Origin: Oscillibacter sp. | GTDB taxonomy: Bacteria; Bacillota; Clostridia; Oscillospirales; Oscillospiraceae | Direction of reading: 5' to 3' | Assembly: GCA_017446225.1 (NCBI GenBank) | Contig: JAFSRH010000051.1 | Location: forward strand, 1 to 32,513 | DNA: 32,513 bases | Notes under the pieces: model-generated | The model's input: the letters and a program-made list of their open reading frames with translations, nothing else | Databases searched by the model: none | Told to the model about the DNA's origin: nothing | Part shown: positions 15,266 through 23,237 of the stretch, one piece after another | Layout of the letters: each line of letters begins with the position of its first letter | Numbering within the stretch: position 1 is the stretch's first letter | Position numbers and translations under genes: made by a program

Positions 15266-18200
15266 TTAGAACAGGTCCGCCTCGTCCGGCTCCATCTGAT
15301 CGAAGTCGTCCGCGTCCTCGAAGTCCTTGGAAAAGTCATAGGAATCCGTGTCAGACGCGTCCGGCTCGTCCGTGTAATCATCGCTCAGGCCGATATCGGC
15401 CCCCGCATCGGGCGGGATGTCCTGCACGTCAAAGCCCGCGTTCTGGAACTCCGCCGCGTCATCGTGGCGCCGGTTATGCCGTTCGGTATCGGCGTCCATC
15501 CGGGCCAGATTGAACGTATCCATAGCGTCCTCATCGTCTTTCAGCTCAATGGGGTTGCAATCGGCGTCCAGCACCTCAATGTCGAGACAAAGCGACTGCA
15601 ACTCTTTCACCAGCACTTTGAACGACTCCGGAACGCCCGGCTGCGGGACATTGTGCCCCTTGACAATGGACTCGTACGTTTTCACGCGTCCCGTCACGTC
15701 ATCGGACTTCACCGTGAGAATTTCCTGCAAGGTATAGGCCGCGCCGTACGCTTCCAGCGCCCAGACTTCCATCTCCCCGAAACGCTGTCCGCCGAACTGC
15801 GCCTTGCCGCCGAGCGGCTGTTGGGTGACGAGCGAATAGGGACCGGTGGAACGGGCGTGAATTTTGTCGTCCACCAGATGATGGAGCTTGAGGAAGTAGA
15901 CATAGCCGACCGTGACTTTATTGTCGAAGGGTTCGCCGGTACGGCCATCGTAGAGGACGGACTTTCCCTCCGGGTCCAGACCGGCTTCCTCAAGCATGGC
16001 GGAAATATCCTGTTCGCGCGCGCCGTCAAAAATCGGCGTGGCGACTTTCAGGGGCGCATCGGATTTCAGATTCCGGATTTCGTCAATGTCGGCCTTTGTG
16101 ACGCCGTTAAAAATCGGGGAGTCCATGTTGACGGGCAGACCGGCCTTGAGTTTCAGGCCGAGTTTCTGCGCGGCGTAACCGAGGTGGACTTCCAGCACCT
16201 GTCCAATGTTCATACGGGACGGGACGCCCAGCGGATTGAGTACGATATCAAGCGGGGTACCGTCCGGCAGGAACGGCATATCCTCTTCCGGAAGGACGCG
16301 CGAGACCACGCCTTTGTTCCCGTGACGGCCGGCCATTTTGTCGCCGACCTGAATCTTCCGCCGCTGGGCGATATAGACCCGGACCACCATGTTGACGCCG
16401 GGTCCGAGGTCGTCCCCGCCCTCACGGGTGAACACTTTGGTGTCCAGTACGATTCCGCTTTCCCCGTGCGGGACTTTCAGGGACGTGTCGCGGACTTCCC
16501 GCGCCTTCTCCCCGAAAATGGCCCGGAGCAGACGTTCTTCCGCGGTCAAATCGGTTTCGCCCTTCGGCGTGACCTTGCCGACCAGAATGTCCCCGGACTT
16601 GACTTCCGCGCCGATACGAATTACGCCGTTTTCGTCCAAGTCTTTCAGGGCATCATCTCCGACATTGGGAATGTCGCGGGTAATTTCTTCCGGTCCAAGT
16701 TTGGTGTCGCGGGAGTCGATTTCAAACTCTTCAATGTGGATGGAAGTATAGAGGTCCTCCCTTACGAGGCGTTCGTTGAGCAGAACCGCGTCTTCGTAGT
16801 TGTAGCCCTCCCACGTCATAAAGCCGACAAGGATATTTTGCCCGAGCGCGATTTCCCCGTTTTCCGTGGACGGGCCGTCCGCCAGAATCGTGGCGGAGAT
16901 TTCCCGTCCGTCCGGGCCGATTTTCTTGCCGTGCACGCGGTCGCCCACGTTCACAATCGGGCGCTGATTGATACAGGTCGTGTGGTTGGAGCGTAAGAAC
17001 TTGATCAGCTTGTAGGACTTGTGGGCGCCGTTGTCGTAATCCACGCCCACGTGACAGGCGTCCACGTCCGTCACAACGCCGTCCCCCTCCGCCAGTACCA
17101 CGATTTCCGAATCAATACAGATTTTGTGCTCCATGCCGGTGCCGACAATCGGCGCGTGAGGCCTGAGCAGGGGCACGGCTTGTCTCTGCATATTGGCTCC
17201 CATCAGGGCGCGGTTGGCGTCATCGTTCGGAAGGAAGGGTATCATGGCCGTGGCGATCGAAACCATCATGCGCGGGGAGACGTCAATATAGTCCACGCGC
17301 TCCCGGTCCACGACCACGATTTCGTCCCGGTGGCGGGCGGTGATACGCGGGTTTTTGAGGCGTCCGAACTCGTCCAGCGGTTCGGCCGCGGGGCCGACAA
17401 TATAATTGTCCTCCTCATCGGCGGTCATATACGTGATGGCCTCCGACACGCGCCCGGTCTCCTTGCTGACGGCCCGGTAGGGCGTCTCGATAAAGCCGTA
17501 TTCGTTCACGCGGGCGTAGGTGGCCAGATAGGAAATCAGGCCAATGTTGGGGCCTTCCGGCGTCTCAATGGGGCACATACGCCCGTAGTGGCTGTAATGC
17601 ACATCGCGGACTTCCATATTGGCGCGTTCGCGGGAGAGGCCGCCGGGTCCTAACGCCGACAGACGCCGTTTATGGGTCAGTTCCGCCAGCGGGTTTGTCT
17701 GGTCCATAAACTGGCTCAGCGGACTGGAACCGAAAAATTCCTTGATGGCCGCCGTCACGGGCCGGATGTTAATCAGGCTCTGCGGCGTGACGCTCTCCAA
17801 GTCCTGCGTAGTCATGCGCTCCCGGATGACGCGTTCCATACGGGAGAAGCCGATCCGGAACTGGTTCTGCAACAGTTCGCCCACGCACCGTAAGCGGCGG
17901 TTGCCCAAGTGGTCGATATCGTCCTTGATGGAAATGCCCCGCGCCAGACCGTTCATATAGTTAATGGAAGCAAGGATATCGTCCACCATGATATGTTTCG
18001 GGACAAGGCGGTCTTTCTGCAACAGAATCTGGTCCTGCAAGTCCTCGCCGCTGTACTTCCGCAAGAGTTCCTGTAACACGTCATAACGTACGCGCTCCTT
18101 CAGGTTGCACACTTCCAGCGGGTCGAAGTCCACGAAACGGCTCATGTCGCACATCCTGTTGGACTGTACCCGGATTTGGGTACCCTCCACGTCAATGACG

Positions 18201-19177
18201 ACCTCGAACACGCCCAGCGCGTCTAATTTCTGCGCCTCTTCCTGCGTCATGACGTGCCCGGACTCGAAGAGGATTTCCCCCGTGGACGGGTCTACCGCGG
18301 GTTCGGCCAGCGCGTGGCCCGTGATTCTCTGCCAGAGCGACAGCTTCCGGTTGAACTTGTACCGGCCGACAACCGACAGGTCGTAACGCCGGGGGTCAAA
18401 GAACAGGTTGTTCATCAGGGTTTCGGCGGCCTCCACCGTGGGCGGCTCGCCCGGACGCAGTTTCCGATAGATTTCCAGCATCGCGTCCTCATAGGTCTTG
18501 CACGGGTCCTTTTCCAGCGTGGCGGCAATGCGGGGGTCATCGCTGAAACGGGCAAGGATTTCGGCATCCGTTTTCAGTCCCAGCGCCCGGATCAGACAGG
18601 TAATCGGAATCTTGCGGTTCTTGTCAATCCGGACCCAGAATACCTCGTTGGTGTCGGTCTCGTACTCCAGCCACGCGCCCCGGTAGGGAATAATTTGACA
18701 GCTCAGGATGGGAAAGTCCGTTTTAATGTCGATTTCCCGGCCGTAGTACACGCCCGGGGAGCGGACAATCTGCGATACCACCACGCGTTCGGCGCCGTTA
18801 ATGACGAACGTGCCCGAGTGCGTCATGAGCGGGAAGTCTCCCATAAAGAGTTCCTGTTCCTTCATGACATCGGTTTCCTTGTTGCGCAGACGGGCCTTGA
18901 CTTTCAACGGCGCGGCGTAAGTCGCATCGCGGGCTTTGCACTCCTCCACATCGTAACGGGGTTCTTCGTCCATTTTGTAGTCAATGAACGTGAGTTCCAA
19001 GTTGCCCTGATAGTCGGTGATGGCGCCTACATCGGCGAACACTTCCCGGAGACCCGTTTCAAGAAATTCCCGATAGGACTTCTTTTGAATCTCCAAAAGG
19101 TTCGGCATGGGAACCACTTCCTCATACCGGGCAAAATTCATTCGAGGCGTGTTTCCGTAGTGTTTGATTTTGGCCAT
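15266..19177 (-). CDS. rpoB: RNA polymerase subunit beta
   Basis: 1303 aa from MAKIKHYGN, chosen because AAAGGTGG lies 8 bp upstream; a GTG four codons earlier would place the same site against the start codon. The rifampicin-pocket region [19 protein letters not shown]...[13 protein letters not shown] has the usual Asp, His and Ser residues of sensitive enzymes. The active-centre motifs ([28 protein letters not shown]) and the C-terminal [18 protein letters not shown] are intact. It ends in a strongly acidic tail of about 50 residues. It forms the polymerase core with RpoC. The gene is not preceded by rplL or rplJ as in most Firmicutes; an unrelated two-gene cassette lies upstream, and rpoB has its own promoter at 19433-19461. 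Confidence 0.98.
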
Positions 19178-19245
19178 CTGCCCATCCACCTTTCCTTACT
19201 GAACCGTCTGCTGTCAGGAAACCTTTTACGCGTCCGTGACCATGG

Positions 19246-19432: not shown

Positions 19433-19461
19433 ATTCTACCACGCTAAAACAGATTTGTCAA
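19433..19461 (-). promoter_or_regulatory. Promoter of rpoBC
   Basis: On the minus strand: TTGACA (19461-19456), 17-bp spacer, TAGAAT (19438-19433). This gives a leader of about 250 nt before rpoB. Confidence 0.8.
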
Positions 19462-19567: not shown

Positions 19568-20848
19568 TTACAAACTCTGCGTTTCTTCGATGCCTTTTAA
19601 TTTCTGCCACGTTTGGTTGATTGCAAACCGGGCGGCAATTACGCTTTCGGGGACACGGTCTCTGTTTGCGGCTTTTACTGCGGTGATTCCGCTTCTAATC
19701 ATGGCGAACCATTGAACGGCATTGATTGCGCACGGGTTTCCGCTGACCGGAGGCGAAACCAATTTGATAACATTTCCCGCCGTTGCGACTGTGTTCGCAA
19801 TCAGTAGCATTTTTTCCTGTTTCAATGTTTCCTGTAACTTCCGGTATTCCCGTTCCGTATTTTCCGAAAACGCGCCCTGAAACACGTGTTCCGTTCCGGT
19901 AATCCGGAGGTACGCGCAAATGAGCAGGTCCTTGACTACCACAGGAACGGACATGGACGCAAAATGACGTAAATCATACCCGTCCCGATACATATTTTCC
20001 GCGATTTTTGCAAGAGAATCGTCCGAACCGTCCCCGACAAAAAATTGTGTCAGGAAAGCTCCGGGAACGGGAAGTCCCCGTGCTGTGCAGAGGTCCGACA
20101 GAAGATGTCCAATATAATAGAACACTGCCAGCAGTTTTTGTGACGTGTCTGTCTGCCAGTTCAGCAGAATTTTGATTTTCCCGTCATTCCCAATACAGGT
20201 AGTCGTTCCCATCAGTATGTCGGCCACCGCAAAGAAGAGGCCCAGAAACGGATCATGGGAAAGACTTCTTAAACGGTGGTTATTCGGGTACATAATGTTT
20301 TTGACGGCGGAAATATCATAGGGCACTTTACAATGTTCCGACAGCCATTGGAGGATGGAATTTAATTCCCCGTCACTGTCTTTCCCGGCTTTTCGGAGCA
20401 GTCCGGTCAAGATACTGCCATCAAAATTTTTGCCGCCCCGCCAGATAGTTACCACTTCCGGCGTACCAACAAATACCATGTCAATCATCACGGACAGCAG
20501 TCCGGCCACGGCGGAAAAAATGATTTCCTCTGTTTGGAGTTCCGGGAATATTTTTGCTTTCGCGTATTCCGAATTAGAAGCGAAATACACGGCGTCAATA
20601 TCGGAATTCAGAGAACCGGCCTCAACGGAAAGCGGCCGGGGCAGTTGCACAGTCAGTTTCATATGTTCCGCCAGCTTTTGGGTTTCGGCGAGCAAATCAT
20701 TGAGTTCGCCGCGAAACTCTGCGCCACTTTGCCGCATGATATCGACTTGATTTCCCAAATCCACCGTATCCATTACCAGCGGGTTCAGTTTGTCGTGAAA
20801 AGCAAGGATTTCTCCCTTTCTATGTTTGTCCATTCCCCGAAACCCCAT
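19568..20848 (-). CDS. Uncharacterised protein with His/Asp motifs resembling YdjM-type membrane hydrolases
   Basis: 426 aa, not recognised with certainty. Helical throughout, with hydrophobic stretches near 110-127 (FSAVAGLLSVMIDMVFVG), 200-215, 240-250 and 300-313. Two motifs stand out: NHRLRSLSHDPFLG (190-203; H191, H198, D199) and IGHLLSDLCTARGLPVPG (246-263; H248, D252). Their order and spacing recall the HRxxTHS and SHLLLDLxTPxG motifs of the DUF457/YdjM family, a putative membrane-associated hydrolase family, but this is by eye only. It starts 8 bp after the stop of the 355-aa gene, with a poor ribosome binding site, so translational coupling is likely; ATG at 20833 is an alternative start. 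Base composition is visibly more AT-rich than in neighbouring genes, which fits acquisition by transfer. Confidence 0.75.
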   Translation of the reverse strand: MGFRGMDKHRKGEILAFHDKLNPLVMDTVDLGNQVDIMRQSGAEFRGELNDLLAETQKLAEHMKLTVQLPRPLSVEAGSLNSDIDAVYFASNSEYAKAKIFPELQTEEIIFSAVAGLLSVMIDMVFVGTPEVVTIWRGGKNFDGSILTGLLRKAGKDSDGELNSILQWLSEHCKVPYDISAVKNIMYPNNHRLRSLSHDPFLGLFFAVADILMGTTTCIGNDGKIKILLNWQTDTSQKLLAVFYYIGHLLSDLCTARGLPVPGAFLTQFFVGDGSDDSLAKIAENMYRDGYDLRHFASMSVPVVVKDLLICAYLRITGTEHVFQGAFSENTEREYRKLQETLKQEKMLLIANTVATAGNVIKLVSPPVSGNPCAINAVQWFAMIRSGITAVKAANRDRVPESVIAARFAINQTWQKLKGIEETQSL

Positions 20849-20856
20849 TTCCGTAA

Positions 20857-21924
20857 TTACTGCTTTGCCGCTCTGCCCATCGCATAAGAGGACTGAAAGC
20901 GATTCATGTCCTGATAGGCTTCGCGCAAATATTGGAGCGTCTTTTTTAACGCGTCCATCGTTTTTCGGTCGTGCTCTCTGTTCAATTTCATTTCATCAAG
21001 CTGTCTTTGCAGTTCGTGGATCTGCTCTTTCAACCTTGACATGACAAGTTGCGCGTTCTGTACGTCCGCTTGTGAGTTCAGCAGAATTTCACGCATGACA
21101 ACATCAAGTTTGGCAGTTTGTGTCAGCATGAGATCAGGAAAATTCTTTGAAATTGCGCCGACAGCGGAAACCATGGCCCCGCCTCCCGCCGCGCCCAGAA
21201 TTGCGCCGCCGCCTACAATAGCCGCCACGCCGCCCGCCATGCCGGTCCCACCCGCCGCGATTGCGCCGCCGCCGAGATAAGCCAGACTGGCGGAAACCAA
21301 CGCCGCCCCGGAAAATCCCGCGAAATTGGAACCGACCAACGCAACCGCAATGGGTCCGGCAAAAACTCCGGCCGCCGCGGCAGCCACACCGGCAGCCGCT
21401 ATCACGGATAACCCGCCAAGAGCAACATTTTTCACGCCTCCCGAAATGCGAAAACGCGCCTGTTGATAGGCTTTCTGGAAACGTTTTATATAAGAAGGAT
21501 CCATTAGTCCGCTGTTCCGGGCGAGTTCTTCCAAATAGCCAGTCTGTGGCGTATATTTCAACTTCGCGTATTCCTGATTTTCTTTTTGGGCGTCTTTGTC
21601 GCCTTTGTCCGCCGCAAAGGGAAAGTAGGGAGTAAACAAAGACGCCTCCATCATCACCAGGTAAAACCAAATTCTGTTGATTCCATCATCACAACGCTGA
21701 ATCATGTACGGAATTTCGAGTTCCGGGTAGAAATGGACTTCTCCCGTCTCTTCCAGAAGTTCCCGCCAATGACGAATCCAGCGTACTTTTTCCGTCCAGT
21801 GTTTTTTGGCTCCTTTCAGAGCTACAGCCGCGTCCTTTTCAGCTACAGCCAACTCAATGGCATACAGGACATTCAACTGTTTCTGATTCAGTCCGAACAT
21901 ATCCATGTAACTGACCGTGTCCAT
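20857..21924 (-). CDS. Uncharacterised membrane protein with Gly/Ala-rich hydrophobic core and C-terminal coiled coil
   Basis: 355 aa from MDTVSYMDMF, chosen because GGAGG lies 7 bp upstream; the longer in-frame Met lacks one. Residues 1-160 are a soluble, tryptophan- and aromatic-rich domain without a recognised fold. Residues 162-258 are almost entirely Gly, Ala, Val, Ile and Ser with repeated GxxxG/GGG spacing (for example AYLGGGAIAAGG and IVGGGAILGAAGGG), able to form two to four close-packed membrane helices. Residues about 288-335 look like a coiled coil. The architecture suggests an oligomerising membrane or pore protein. It leads a two-gene operon with its own promoter (21972-22000). 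I cannot name the family. The composition is more AT-rich than the surroundings. Confidence 0.8.
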   Translation of the reverse strand: MDTVSYMDMFGLNQKQLNVLYAIELAVAEKDAAVALKGAKKHWTEKVRWIRHWRELLEETGEVHFYPELEIPYMIQRCDDGINRIWFYLVMMEASLFTPYFPFAADKGDKDAQKENQEYAKLKYTPQTGYLEELARNSGLMDPSYIKRFQKAYQQARFRISGGVKNVALGGLSVIAAAGVAAAAAGVFAGPIAVALVGSNFAGFSGAALVSASLAYLGGGAIAAGGTGMAGGVAAIVGGGAILGAAGGGAMVSAVGAISKNFPDLMLTQTAKLDVVMREILLNSQADVQNAQLVMSRLKEQIHELQRQLDEMKLNREHDRKTMDALKKTLQYLREAYQDMNRFQSSYAMGRAAKQ

Positions 21925-21947: not shown

Positions 21948-22015
21948 ATCGCATATGATGTGGCACTCATTACTTTACCATGGATGTTCGATTCTGTCAA
22001 TCGCATGATGTGCGG
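21948..22015. repeat. Direct-repeat pair flanking the cassette promoter
   Basis: ATCGCATATGATGTGGC (21948-21964) and ATCGCATGATGTGCGG (22000-22015) are imperfect direct repeats about 51 bp apart, roughly five helical turns. One touches the -35 box and the other lies just past the start of transcription. This fits a repressor operator pair that loops or binds cooperatively. Confidence 0.5.
21972..22000 (-). promoter_or_regulatory. Promoter of the two-gene membrane cassette
   Basis: On the minus strand: TTGACA (22000-21995), 17-bp spacer, TAAAGT (21977-21972). Confidence 0.8.
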
Positions 22016-22070: not shown

Positions 22071-22157
22071 GTCCCATTGTGTGAGAGCGTATGCAAGAAA
22101 CAATGGAGGCGGCTCCATATTTGCGAAACCTTTCATTTAAAAATAAGGGGGTATTTT

Positions 22158-23237
22158 ATGAATCATGCGCAGAAAAAACGGTGGTGGCTGATACCGCTGG
22201 GAATTGTCGCGGCGCTGGTATGCGTAGCGGCCGCGTACGCGGGGTACGTTCTCCTGAGCTACTCCCGGATTCCGGACCTTCAGACGCTGACCATCGAAGG
22301 GACCGCCGGAGCGCCGGCGTTGATTGACACAGAGTACACCGCCGTATCTTATAACATAGGGTTCGGGGCCTACACGCCAGAGTTTACGTTCTTTATGGAC
22401 GGCGGCTCCCAAAGCTGGGCCGAATCGAAAGAAAGCGTCATTGCGTGCGTACAGGGCGCGGCGGAAACCGCGCTGTCTTTTGACCCGGACATCGTCTTGT
22501 TTCAGGAAGTGGACACCGACTCCACCCGCAGTTATCACGTGAACCAAGCGGAACTGATCAACGACTTCTTTCCCGACTTTGACAGCGTGTCGGCCATAAA
22601 CTACCATTCCGCTTTCCTGATGTACCCTCTCTGGCAGCCTCACGGCGCGTCCAACTCCTGCCTGTTGACGGAGAGCGCCTTTGACATCACATCCGCGCTC
22701 CGGCGGAGCCTTCCCATCGCAACCGGCCTGAAAAAACTGCTGGATTTGGACCGCTGCTACTCCATCTCCCGGATCCCGGTCGAGAACGGAAAGGAACTCG
22801 TTGTAATCAACGCCCACCTCTCCGCCTACGGCACGGACGCCAGTCAGGGGGAAGCGCAGTTGGAAATGCTCTTTGCGGACATGGCGGCGGAATACGAAAA
22901 GGGCAATTACATCATCTGCGGCGGCGATTTCAACCACGATTTCCCCGGCAATTCCAGAGAAACGCTGAATCCGGACACGGACCGCATTTACAGTTGGTGC
23001 CAGCCGCTTCCCGTTGACATACTGCCGGACGGCTTCTCCCTTTGTACGGATTACGCCGAGGGGCTGGTCGCGTCCACAAGAGACACGGACATTCCCTATG
23101 GACCGGACAGTTTTACCGTGGTTTTAGATGGCTTTATCCTCTCGGACAATGTGCGGTGCGACTATAATCAGGTGGTGGACACCGGATTTCTTTACAGTGA
23201 CCACAATCCCGTGGTGTTACGCTTTGTCCTTCAGTAA
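22158..23237 (+). CDS. Membrane-anchored endonuclease/exonuclease/phosphatase-family protein
   Basis: 359 aa from MNHAQKKRWW, with AAGGGGG upstream. Residues 9-33 form one transmembrane helix after a positively charged N terminus, so the catalytic domain faces outside. EEP-fold residues are visible in order: N66 (SYNIGFG), E117 (FQEVD), H220 (INAHLS), D257/N259 (GGDFNHD) and D348/H349 (SDHNPV). Family members are Mg-dependent phosphodiesterases: DNases, sphingomyelinases or inositol phosphatases. The substrate is not decidable here. It is divergent from the membrane cassette and may share regulation with it, but GC content and codon use look like the host's. A 15-bp hairpin follows the stop codon. 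Confidence 0.88.
   Translation: MNHAQKKRWWLIPLGIVAALVCVAAAYAGYVLLSYSRIPDLQTLTIEGTAGAPALIDTEYTAVSYNIGFGAYTPEFTFFMDGGSQSWAESKESVIACVQGAAETALSFDPDIVLFQEVDTDSTRSYHVNQAELINDFFPDFDSVSAINYHSAFLMYPLWQPHGASNSCLLTESAFDITSALRRSLPIATGLKKLLDLDRCYSISRIPVENGKELVVINAHLSAYGTDASQGEAQLEMLFADMAAEYEKGNYIICGGDFNHDFPGNSRETLNPDTDRIYSWCQPLPVDILPDGFSLCTDYAEGLVASTRDTDIPYGPDSFTVVLDGFILSDNVRCDYNQVVDTGFLYSDHNPVVLRFVLQ

Follow-up and report, generated by a model that had tools for sequence, protein, structure and literature searches.

The described systems closest to the locus treated here are Bunzi and PDC-M09, a candidate system of PADLOC that consists of an A and a B protein. Bunzi is encoded by two adjacent genes on one strand, and on a Lactococcus plasmid its two proteins, BnzA (4e-125) and BnzB (2.7e-150), are found side by side. 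A TerB domain is listed for the system in an entry of PMC10952713, and an entry of PMC12926258 lists its mechanism as unknown. For PDC-M09, no mention was found in the open-licence PMC papers that were searched.

The window, meaning the whole stretch of DNA that was analysed, is the complete contig G000:C17, which is 32,513 bases long and belongs to a 2.18-Mb draft genome. Between rpoB and an EEP-family gene it carries a pair of genes, A and B. This pair was probably acquired horizontally and is probably a membrane-bound anti-phage module of the Bunzi type, with a BnzB-family subunit joined by a partner other than BnzA; its activity and mechanism are what we infer from the comparisons below. 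The locus has the following features.

15266-19189, minus strand: rpoB, flanking the B side of the pair
19433..19461, minus strand: promoter-like site between B and rpoB, from the promoter scan, close to the left end of the accessory segment
19568..20833, minus strand: gene B, intact, encoding a 421-aa BnzB-family protein from the ATG at 20833
20857..21924, minus strand: gene A, intact, encoding a 355-aa membrane protein (ATG 21924, stop 20857)
21972..22000, minus strand: promoter-like site upstream of A, TTGACA-17-TAAAGT with TG before the second hexamer, 10/12 matches
22137-23237, plus strand: EEP-family gene (Pfam Exo_endo_phos 2.3e-7), flanking the A side of the pair

The first-pass annotation described two adjacent minus-strand genes, and both were confirmed as intact open reading frames at 19568-21924. 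A precedes B, the two are closely spaced, and a GGAGG can be read in the sequence seven bases 5′ of the ATG of A. The 8-bp gap first given for the pair holds if B begins at the alternative ATG at 20848, which would yield a protein of 426 aa with the same stop end at 19568. From the ATG at 20833, the gap is 23 bp. The pair had also been credited with its own consensus promoter. A site with 10/12 matches does lie upstream of A, but the scan of the region returned four sites against a mean of 3.1 in shuffled sequence. As this number is hardly above that of the shuffles, the promoter of A is plausible by position only. The lower GC content noted for the pair is firmer: the A-B span has 50.1% GC, compared with a minimum of 54.1% and a mean of 59.1% over the rest of the contig, as read in 510 overlapping windows of equal size. 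The GC3 values follow the same trend, at 0.54 for B and 0.55 for A against 0.70-0.81 for eleven other genes.

The likeness to Bunzi resides in B. Against the PADLOC models, this protein matches BnzB of the Bunzi system over residues 97-379 (E 3.1e-46). A profile built from 42 B relatives aligns by hhalign with the BnzB of the Lactococcus plasmid at a probability of 99.95% (E 8.7e-38, 305 columns). Pfam, NCBIfam and PHROGs gave no useful match for B. It had been annotated as a hydrophobic protein with His/Asp motifs, and both the motifs and four hydrophobic stretches were found. D173, H186, H193, P195 and G198 are invariant in 76/76 homologues, as are H243, D247 and P257 in all 75 of the homologues that have a letter at these positions. 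The Asp and His residues of this set map to two regions of the gene.

20255..20317, minus strand: B residues 173-193 (D173, H186 and H193), putative active site; each residue in 76/76 homologues and in 18/18 pattern-free rows
20093..20107, minus strand: B residues 243-247 (H243 and D247), putative active site; each residue in 75/75 homologues and in 18/18 pattern-free rows

Part of this conservation is built in, since 58 of the 76 rows came from a contig scan whose search patterns contain H193 and P195 or H243 and D247; the first pattern is matched by 51 of these 58 rows and the second by 15. Neither D173 nor H186 is part of a pattern, and the 18 rows chosen without patterns show no variation at any of the five Asp/His residues. 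The invariant set suggests a metal-binding active site. In the AlphaFold model (mean pLDDT 85), B is mostly helical with an N-terminal helix of 46 residues, and no clear structural match was found among PDB or viral structures.

Protein A is, as first annotated, a Gly/Ala-rich membrane protein, with a hydrophobic segment at approximately residues 164-260 and a helical C-terminus.

21145..21435, minus strand: A residues 164-260, Gly/Ala-rich membrane segment containing LGGGAIAAGGTGMAGG, common to PDC-M09A; low AlphaFold confidence
20899..21138, minus strand: A residues 263-342, helices, coiled-coil-like; weak Pfam coiled-coil matches, helices in the AlphaFold model

The coiled coil originally claimed for A thus stands as modelled helices, with its Pfam matches being weak. 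PADLOC assigns A to PDC-M09A, a candidate defence protein, over residues 152-312 only (3.7e-14). With hhalign the probability is 98.7% over 119 columns, which comprise the glycine-zipper membrane segment and what follows it. In the AlphaFold model of A, the N-terminal domain (about residues 11-160) is all-helical and predicted with confidence, the membrane segment is poorly predicted, and the C-terminus is helical at fair confidence. No PADLOC match of A to BnzA was obtained at E up to 1, and two hhalign comparisons with one BnzA sequence gave 3.6% and 6.5%. A TerB domain was found in A neither by Pfam nor by hhalign (1.7%), and the Lactococcus BnzA is likewise without a Pfam TerB match. At the level of sequence comparison and prediction, A supplies the glycine-zipper membrane segment and the helical C-terminus of the pair, and B keeps the invariant Asp/His set. 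Relatives of the A N-terminal domain also occur as stand-alone proteins of 136-146 aa (L204:6644-7054, minus strand; L205:6061-6501, plus strand; L206:6448-6873, plus strand). In all three genomes, which belong to one family, the adjoining gene is of PLD type and cardiolipin-synthase-like.

The distribution of the pair is sporadic. B is present in the genome of the window and in 0/36 other genomes of the genus, 16 of which are at least 90% complete. A scan of the family returned any B-like match in only 5 of 200 genomes, the window's own included, the other four being partial and distant. On these counts (B in 1/37 genus genomes, a B-like match in 5/200 family genomes), a housekeeping pair of the family is rejected, and the pair is not conserved at this locus across the family.

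The same distribution bears on the proposal that the pair has no role in defence and is instead a host enzyme of membrane lipids or envelope stress. Here, B would be a YdjM-like metal-dependent hydrolase and A its regulatory membrane partner. The YdjM family (PF04307) resembles B in being made up of membrane proteins and in the motif order HR...H...H...D only; the best local hhalign alignment lays HR...GHLLSD..T..G of B on HRG...H..D..N..G of YdjM. The position of the stand-alone N-terminal-domain relatives of A, next to a cardiolipin-synthase-like gene in the three genomes of one family, would also fit a lipid function. However, B has no Pfam YdjM match at E up to 1, and the alignment is not significant, with a probability of 1.7%. 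The patchy presence and the BnzB homology further speak against housekeeping, and a host enzyme of this type is considered quite improbable.

The first-pass annotation also held that the pair interrupts the usual neighbourhood upstream of rpoB, which the comparison did not confirm. By eye, gene content upstream of rpoB varies between the 12 same-genus genomes inspected (L130-L141), and so no fixed neighbourhood was seen for the pair to interrupt. In 12/12 of these genomes, L130 covering only ~2.4 kb, no relatives of A, B or the EEP gene were found upstream of rpoB. Insertion into a conserved rpoB neighbourhood was likewise set aside, as the upstream genes differ and the EEP gene is on another contig in the nearest relative, G008. 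DNA similarity to G008 extends to 19474 and is picked up again, on another contig, from 22173. The A-B segment is placed at a rearranged junction (19474 / 22173), and no clean empty site for it was found. It may be that rpoBC lies at a rearrangement hotspot in this genus.

The two genes recur together elsewhere. Scanning genome contigs with the alignment of B identified 60 loci. The B match reaches E 1e-38 or better in 26 of them (L040-L064 and L083), and in 26/26 of these A is located upstream of B on the same strand. These include two loci, L046 and L050, on the same contigs as L033 and L027, one in which B is divided between two ORFs (L058) and one with a short A ORF of 166 aa (L052). The possibility that the genes do not co-occur outside the window is thus set aside. 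In Roseofilum (L060), two tandem A genes (218-1267 and 1461-2429) precede one B, with a gap of 0.8 kb. The 34 weaker B loci gave no match to A except L072, at 1.9e-4. A first group of 21 weaker loci, including L025, has a glycine-zipper protein of 170-234 aa upstream in 20, with L068 cut by the contig end. The second group has 14 loci; among the 13 tested, four (L090, L091, L092 and L098) encode a strongly Gly/Ala-rich protein upstream.

Fusion of B to A occurs in five genomes (G254, G293, G525, G523 and G805), and the fusion loci are L030, L031, L034, L035 and L209. A search with A in 295 genomes of the order, at E below 1e-25, returned the window's pair, one other pair, two fusions and one broken fusion. 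Among 291 genomes of the class, the full-length matches were the window's pair, one other pair and one fusion. At L036:9980-12178, similarity to B and A is spread over separate ORFs and the end of A is lost, which gives the locus the appearance of a disrupted relative of the B-A fusion. Distances between A proteins and between B proteins are correlated over 30 loci (r = 0.87, with 0/2000 permutations as high), a value to which kinship of the hosts can contribute. In the B tree, the window adjoins Pseudoflavonifractor capillosus (48% identity, support 97/94) and an Erysipelotrichaceae member is nested among mostly Oscillospiraceae rows, a pattern that is no proof of transfer. As judged from gene order and alignment, A and B form a recurrent unit that is sometimes fused.

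The fusions are also relevant to the suggestion that the pair is an addiction module with no anti-phage role, in which one subunit is toxic alone and is held by the other. Two adjacent genes on a low-GC segment, with relatives of B on plasmids, would be compatible with such an arrangement. Nonetheless, proteins of 355 and 421 aa that are found as one polypeptide in five genomes are a misfit with a free toxin and a labile antitoxin, and this explanation is held to be very improbable indeed.

Defence genes are found near some relatives of the pair. The neighbours of L062 include DrmA and DrmB of DISARM, and those of L063 include PglZ and BrxL of BREX along with a type IV restriction enzyme. Type IV restriction is also found beside L055, SspB and an SspD-like protein beside L041, and a type I methylase beside the fused B-A gene of L035. 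These assignments come from a set of 10 proteins selected by eye at six loci, of which nine matched and one (L044) did not; with such a hand-picked set and no matched control, the matches give no frequency estimate. A Priestia plasmid has a type I restriction operon upstream of the pair, and two small genes separate the operon from it. No obvious defence neighbour was seen by eye at L045 and L061. Of the 24 loci displayed, six have WYL regulators no more than 1 kb from the pair. These regulators were singled out by eye and then verified with Pfam, and the background is 48 matches in 39 genomes of the order. The window's own draft genome gave no WYL match. According to a passage of PMC9122601, BrxR-type WYL regulators are located together with known defence systems in about half of cases (48%).

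The flanks of the pair in the window itself differ from these loci. Ten ORFs scanned there gave generic-domain matches to defence models only and none that was convincing, the strongest being a GlgB-like model for a trehalase-type gene (6e-33) and a MADS model for an ABC-type gene (7e-16). By Pfam, the surroundings consist of TPR, two-component, ABC, chromate transport, MscS and methionine genes. They look ordinary, and the window is no defence island. Clustering with defence genes or mobile elements thus applies to some relatives, through the hand-picked neighbours and the plasmids, and not to the flanks of the pair in the window. The abortive-infection or membrane-stress reading of the first-pass annotation is retained to the extent that the pair is sporadic, transferred-looking and of a defence-type membrane kind, with matches to the BnzB and PDC-M09A models and with relatives near defence genes, WYL regulators and on plasmids.

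B homologues were also found on 491 of 72,556 plasmid records, of which 436 are called conjugative, and on 3 phage records. In two human-gut phages of Ca. Heliusvirales (L161 and L162), BnzB-like genes are situated near the record end beyond the endolysin, among hypothetical genes, and in L162 the BnzB-like gene is followed by a PDC-M09A-like gene. Phage-carried exclusion or defence is possible for these genes. On the E. coli IncHI2A plasmid NZ_CP098384 (L159:8025-9987), a small glycine-zipper protein and a BnzB-like protein are encoded ~6 kb from ter (tellurium) genes. Since ter operons are described in a passage of PMC8123226 as implicated in phage inhibition, phage effects of L159-like plasmids may have more than one source.

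The plasmid and phage records raise the alternative of an exclusion system, whereby the pair would act at the membrane to keep out a second phage or plasmid without killing the host, and would spread as plasmid or prophage cargo. The largely conjugative plasmids and the site of the gene past the endolysin in the two phages are in keeping with this. Yet A is found on one plasmid record only, and only one of the plasmid matches extends over 80% or more of B. Most pairs of the window's type are on contigs not known as plasmids, some of them beside restriction, BREX or DISARM genes, and the Enterobacterales plasmid region inspected holds the form with a small partner. Exclusion is accordingly regarded as unlikely.

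For an anti-phage module of the Bunzi type, the following scheme is proposed. A would anchor an A-B complex in the membrane, and the helical domain at the N-terminus of A, which may be a membrane- or lipid-related sensor, would respond to infection or to disturbance of the membrane. Coiled coils could join B (residues 12-57) to A (residues 263-342). The Asp/His set of B would function as a metal-dependent hydrolase acting on a membrane or nucleotide substrate, an idea that derives from residue conservation. Activation would then damage or depolarise the membrane, such that the infected cell is stopped before phage release.

A broader proposal can be offered tentatively. The BnzB-family proteins might constitute an undescribed class of membrane-associated metal-dependent enzyme, with Bunzi, the PDC-M09A hybrids, the plasmid pairs with a small partner and the present cassette belonging to one defence superfamily. 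A constant catalytic B would be combined with glycine-zipper partners that can be exchanged and that determine both what is sensed and the mode of attack on the membrane. The cassette separates the constant part, B with its five invariant Asp/His residues, from the exchangeable membrane partner, and in this way the residues to mutate are named. As A has no BnzA match, a search rule that requires both BnzA and BnzB would miss the cassette, and modules of the BnzB type may thus be undercounted.

Compared with Bunzi, the cassette has a BnzB homologue and the same layout of two adjacent genes on one strand. A Gly/Ala-rich hydrophobic segment like that of A is also visible in the sequence of the Lactococcus BnzA. 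The difference lies in A, which is without a detectable BnzA match and has 355 aa against 536 aa for BnzA. The small-partner pairs, e.g., that of the IncHI2A plasmid L159, encode a BnzB homologue of ~460 aa with a glycine-zipper protein of ~165-235 aa upstream. This partner is without the N-terminal domain of A, and that of L159 matches the membrane part of BnzA (1.6e-6). With PDC-M09, the likeness is the match of A to PDC-M09A, in which the membrane segment and the helical C-terminus are shared and the N-terminal domain of A is not. B has no PDC-M09B match, and its hhalign probability is 3.6% to the L037 protein, itself a PDC-M09B (3.7e-213). Natural hybrids with BnzB beside PDC-M09A are seen at L038 and in phage L162, and also at L208 by profiles built in this analysis. 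With A lacking a BnzA match and B a PDC-M09B match, the cassette would be filed as neither system, and it appears to be a new form within the Bunzi kind: judged from the sequences, it is Bunzi-like by its B subunit and closer to PDC-M09 by its A subunit.
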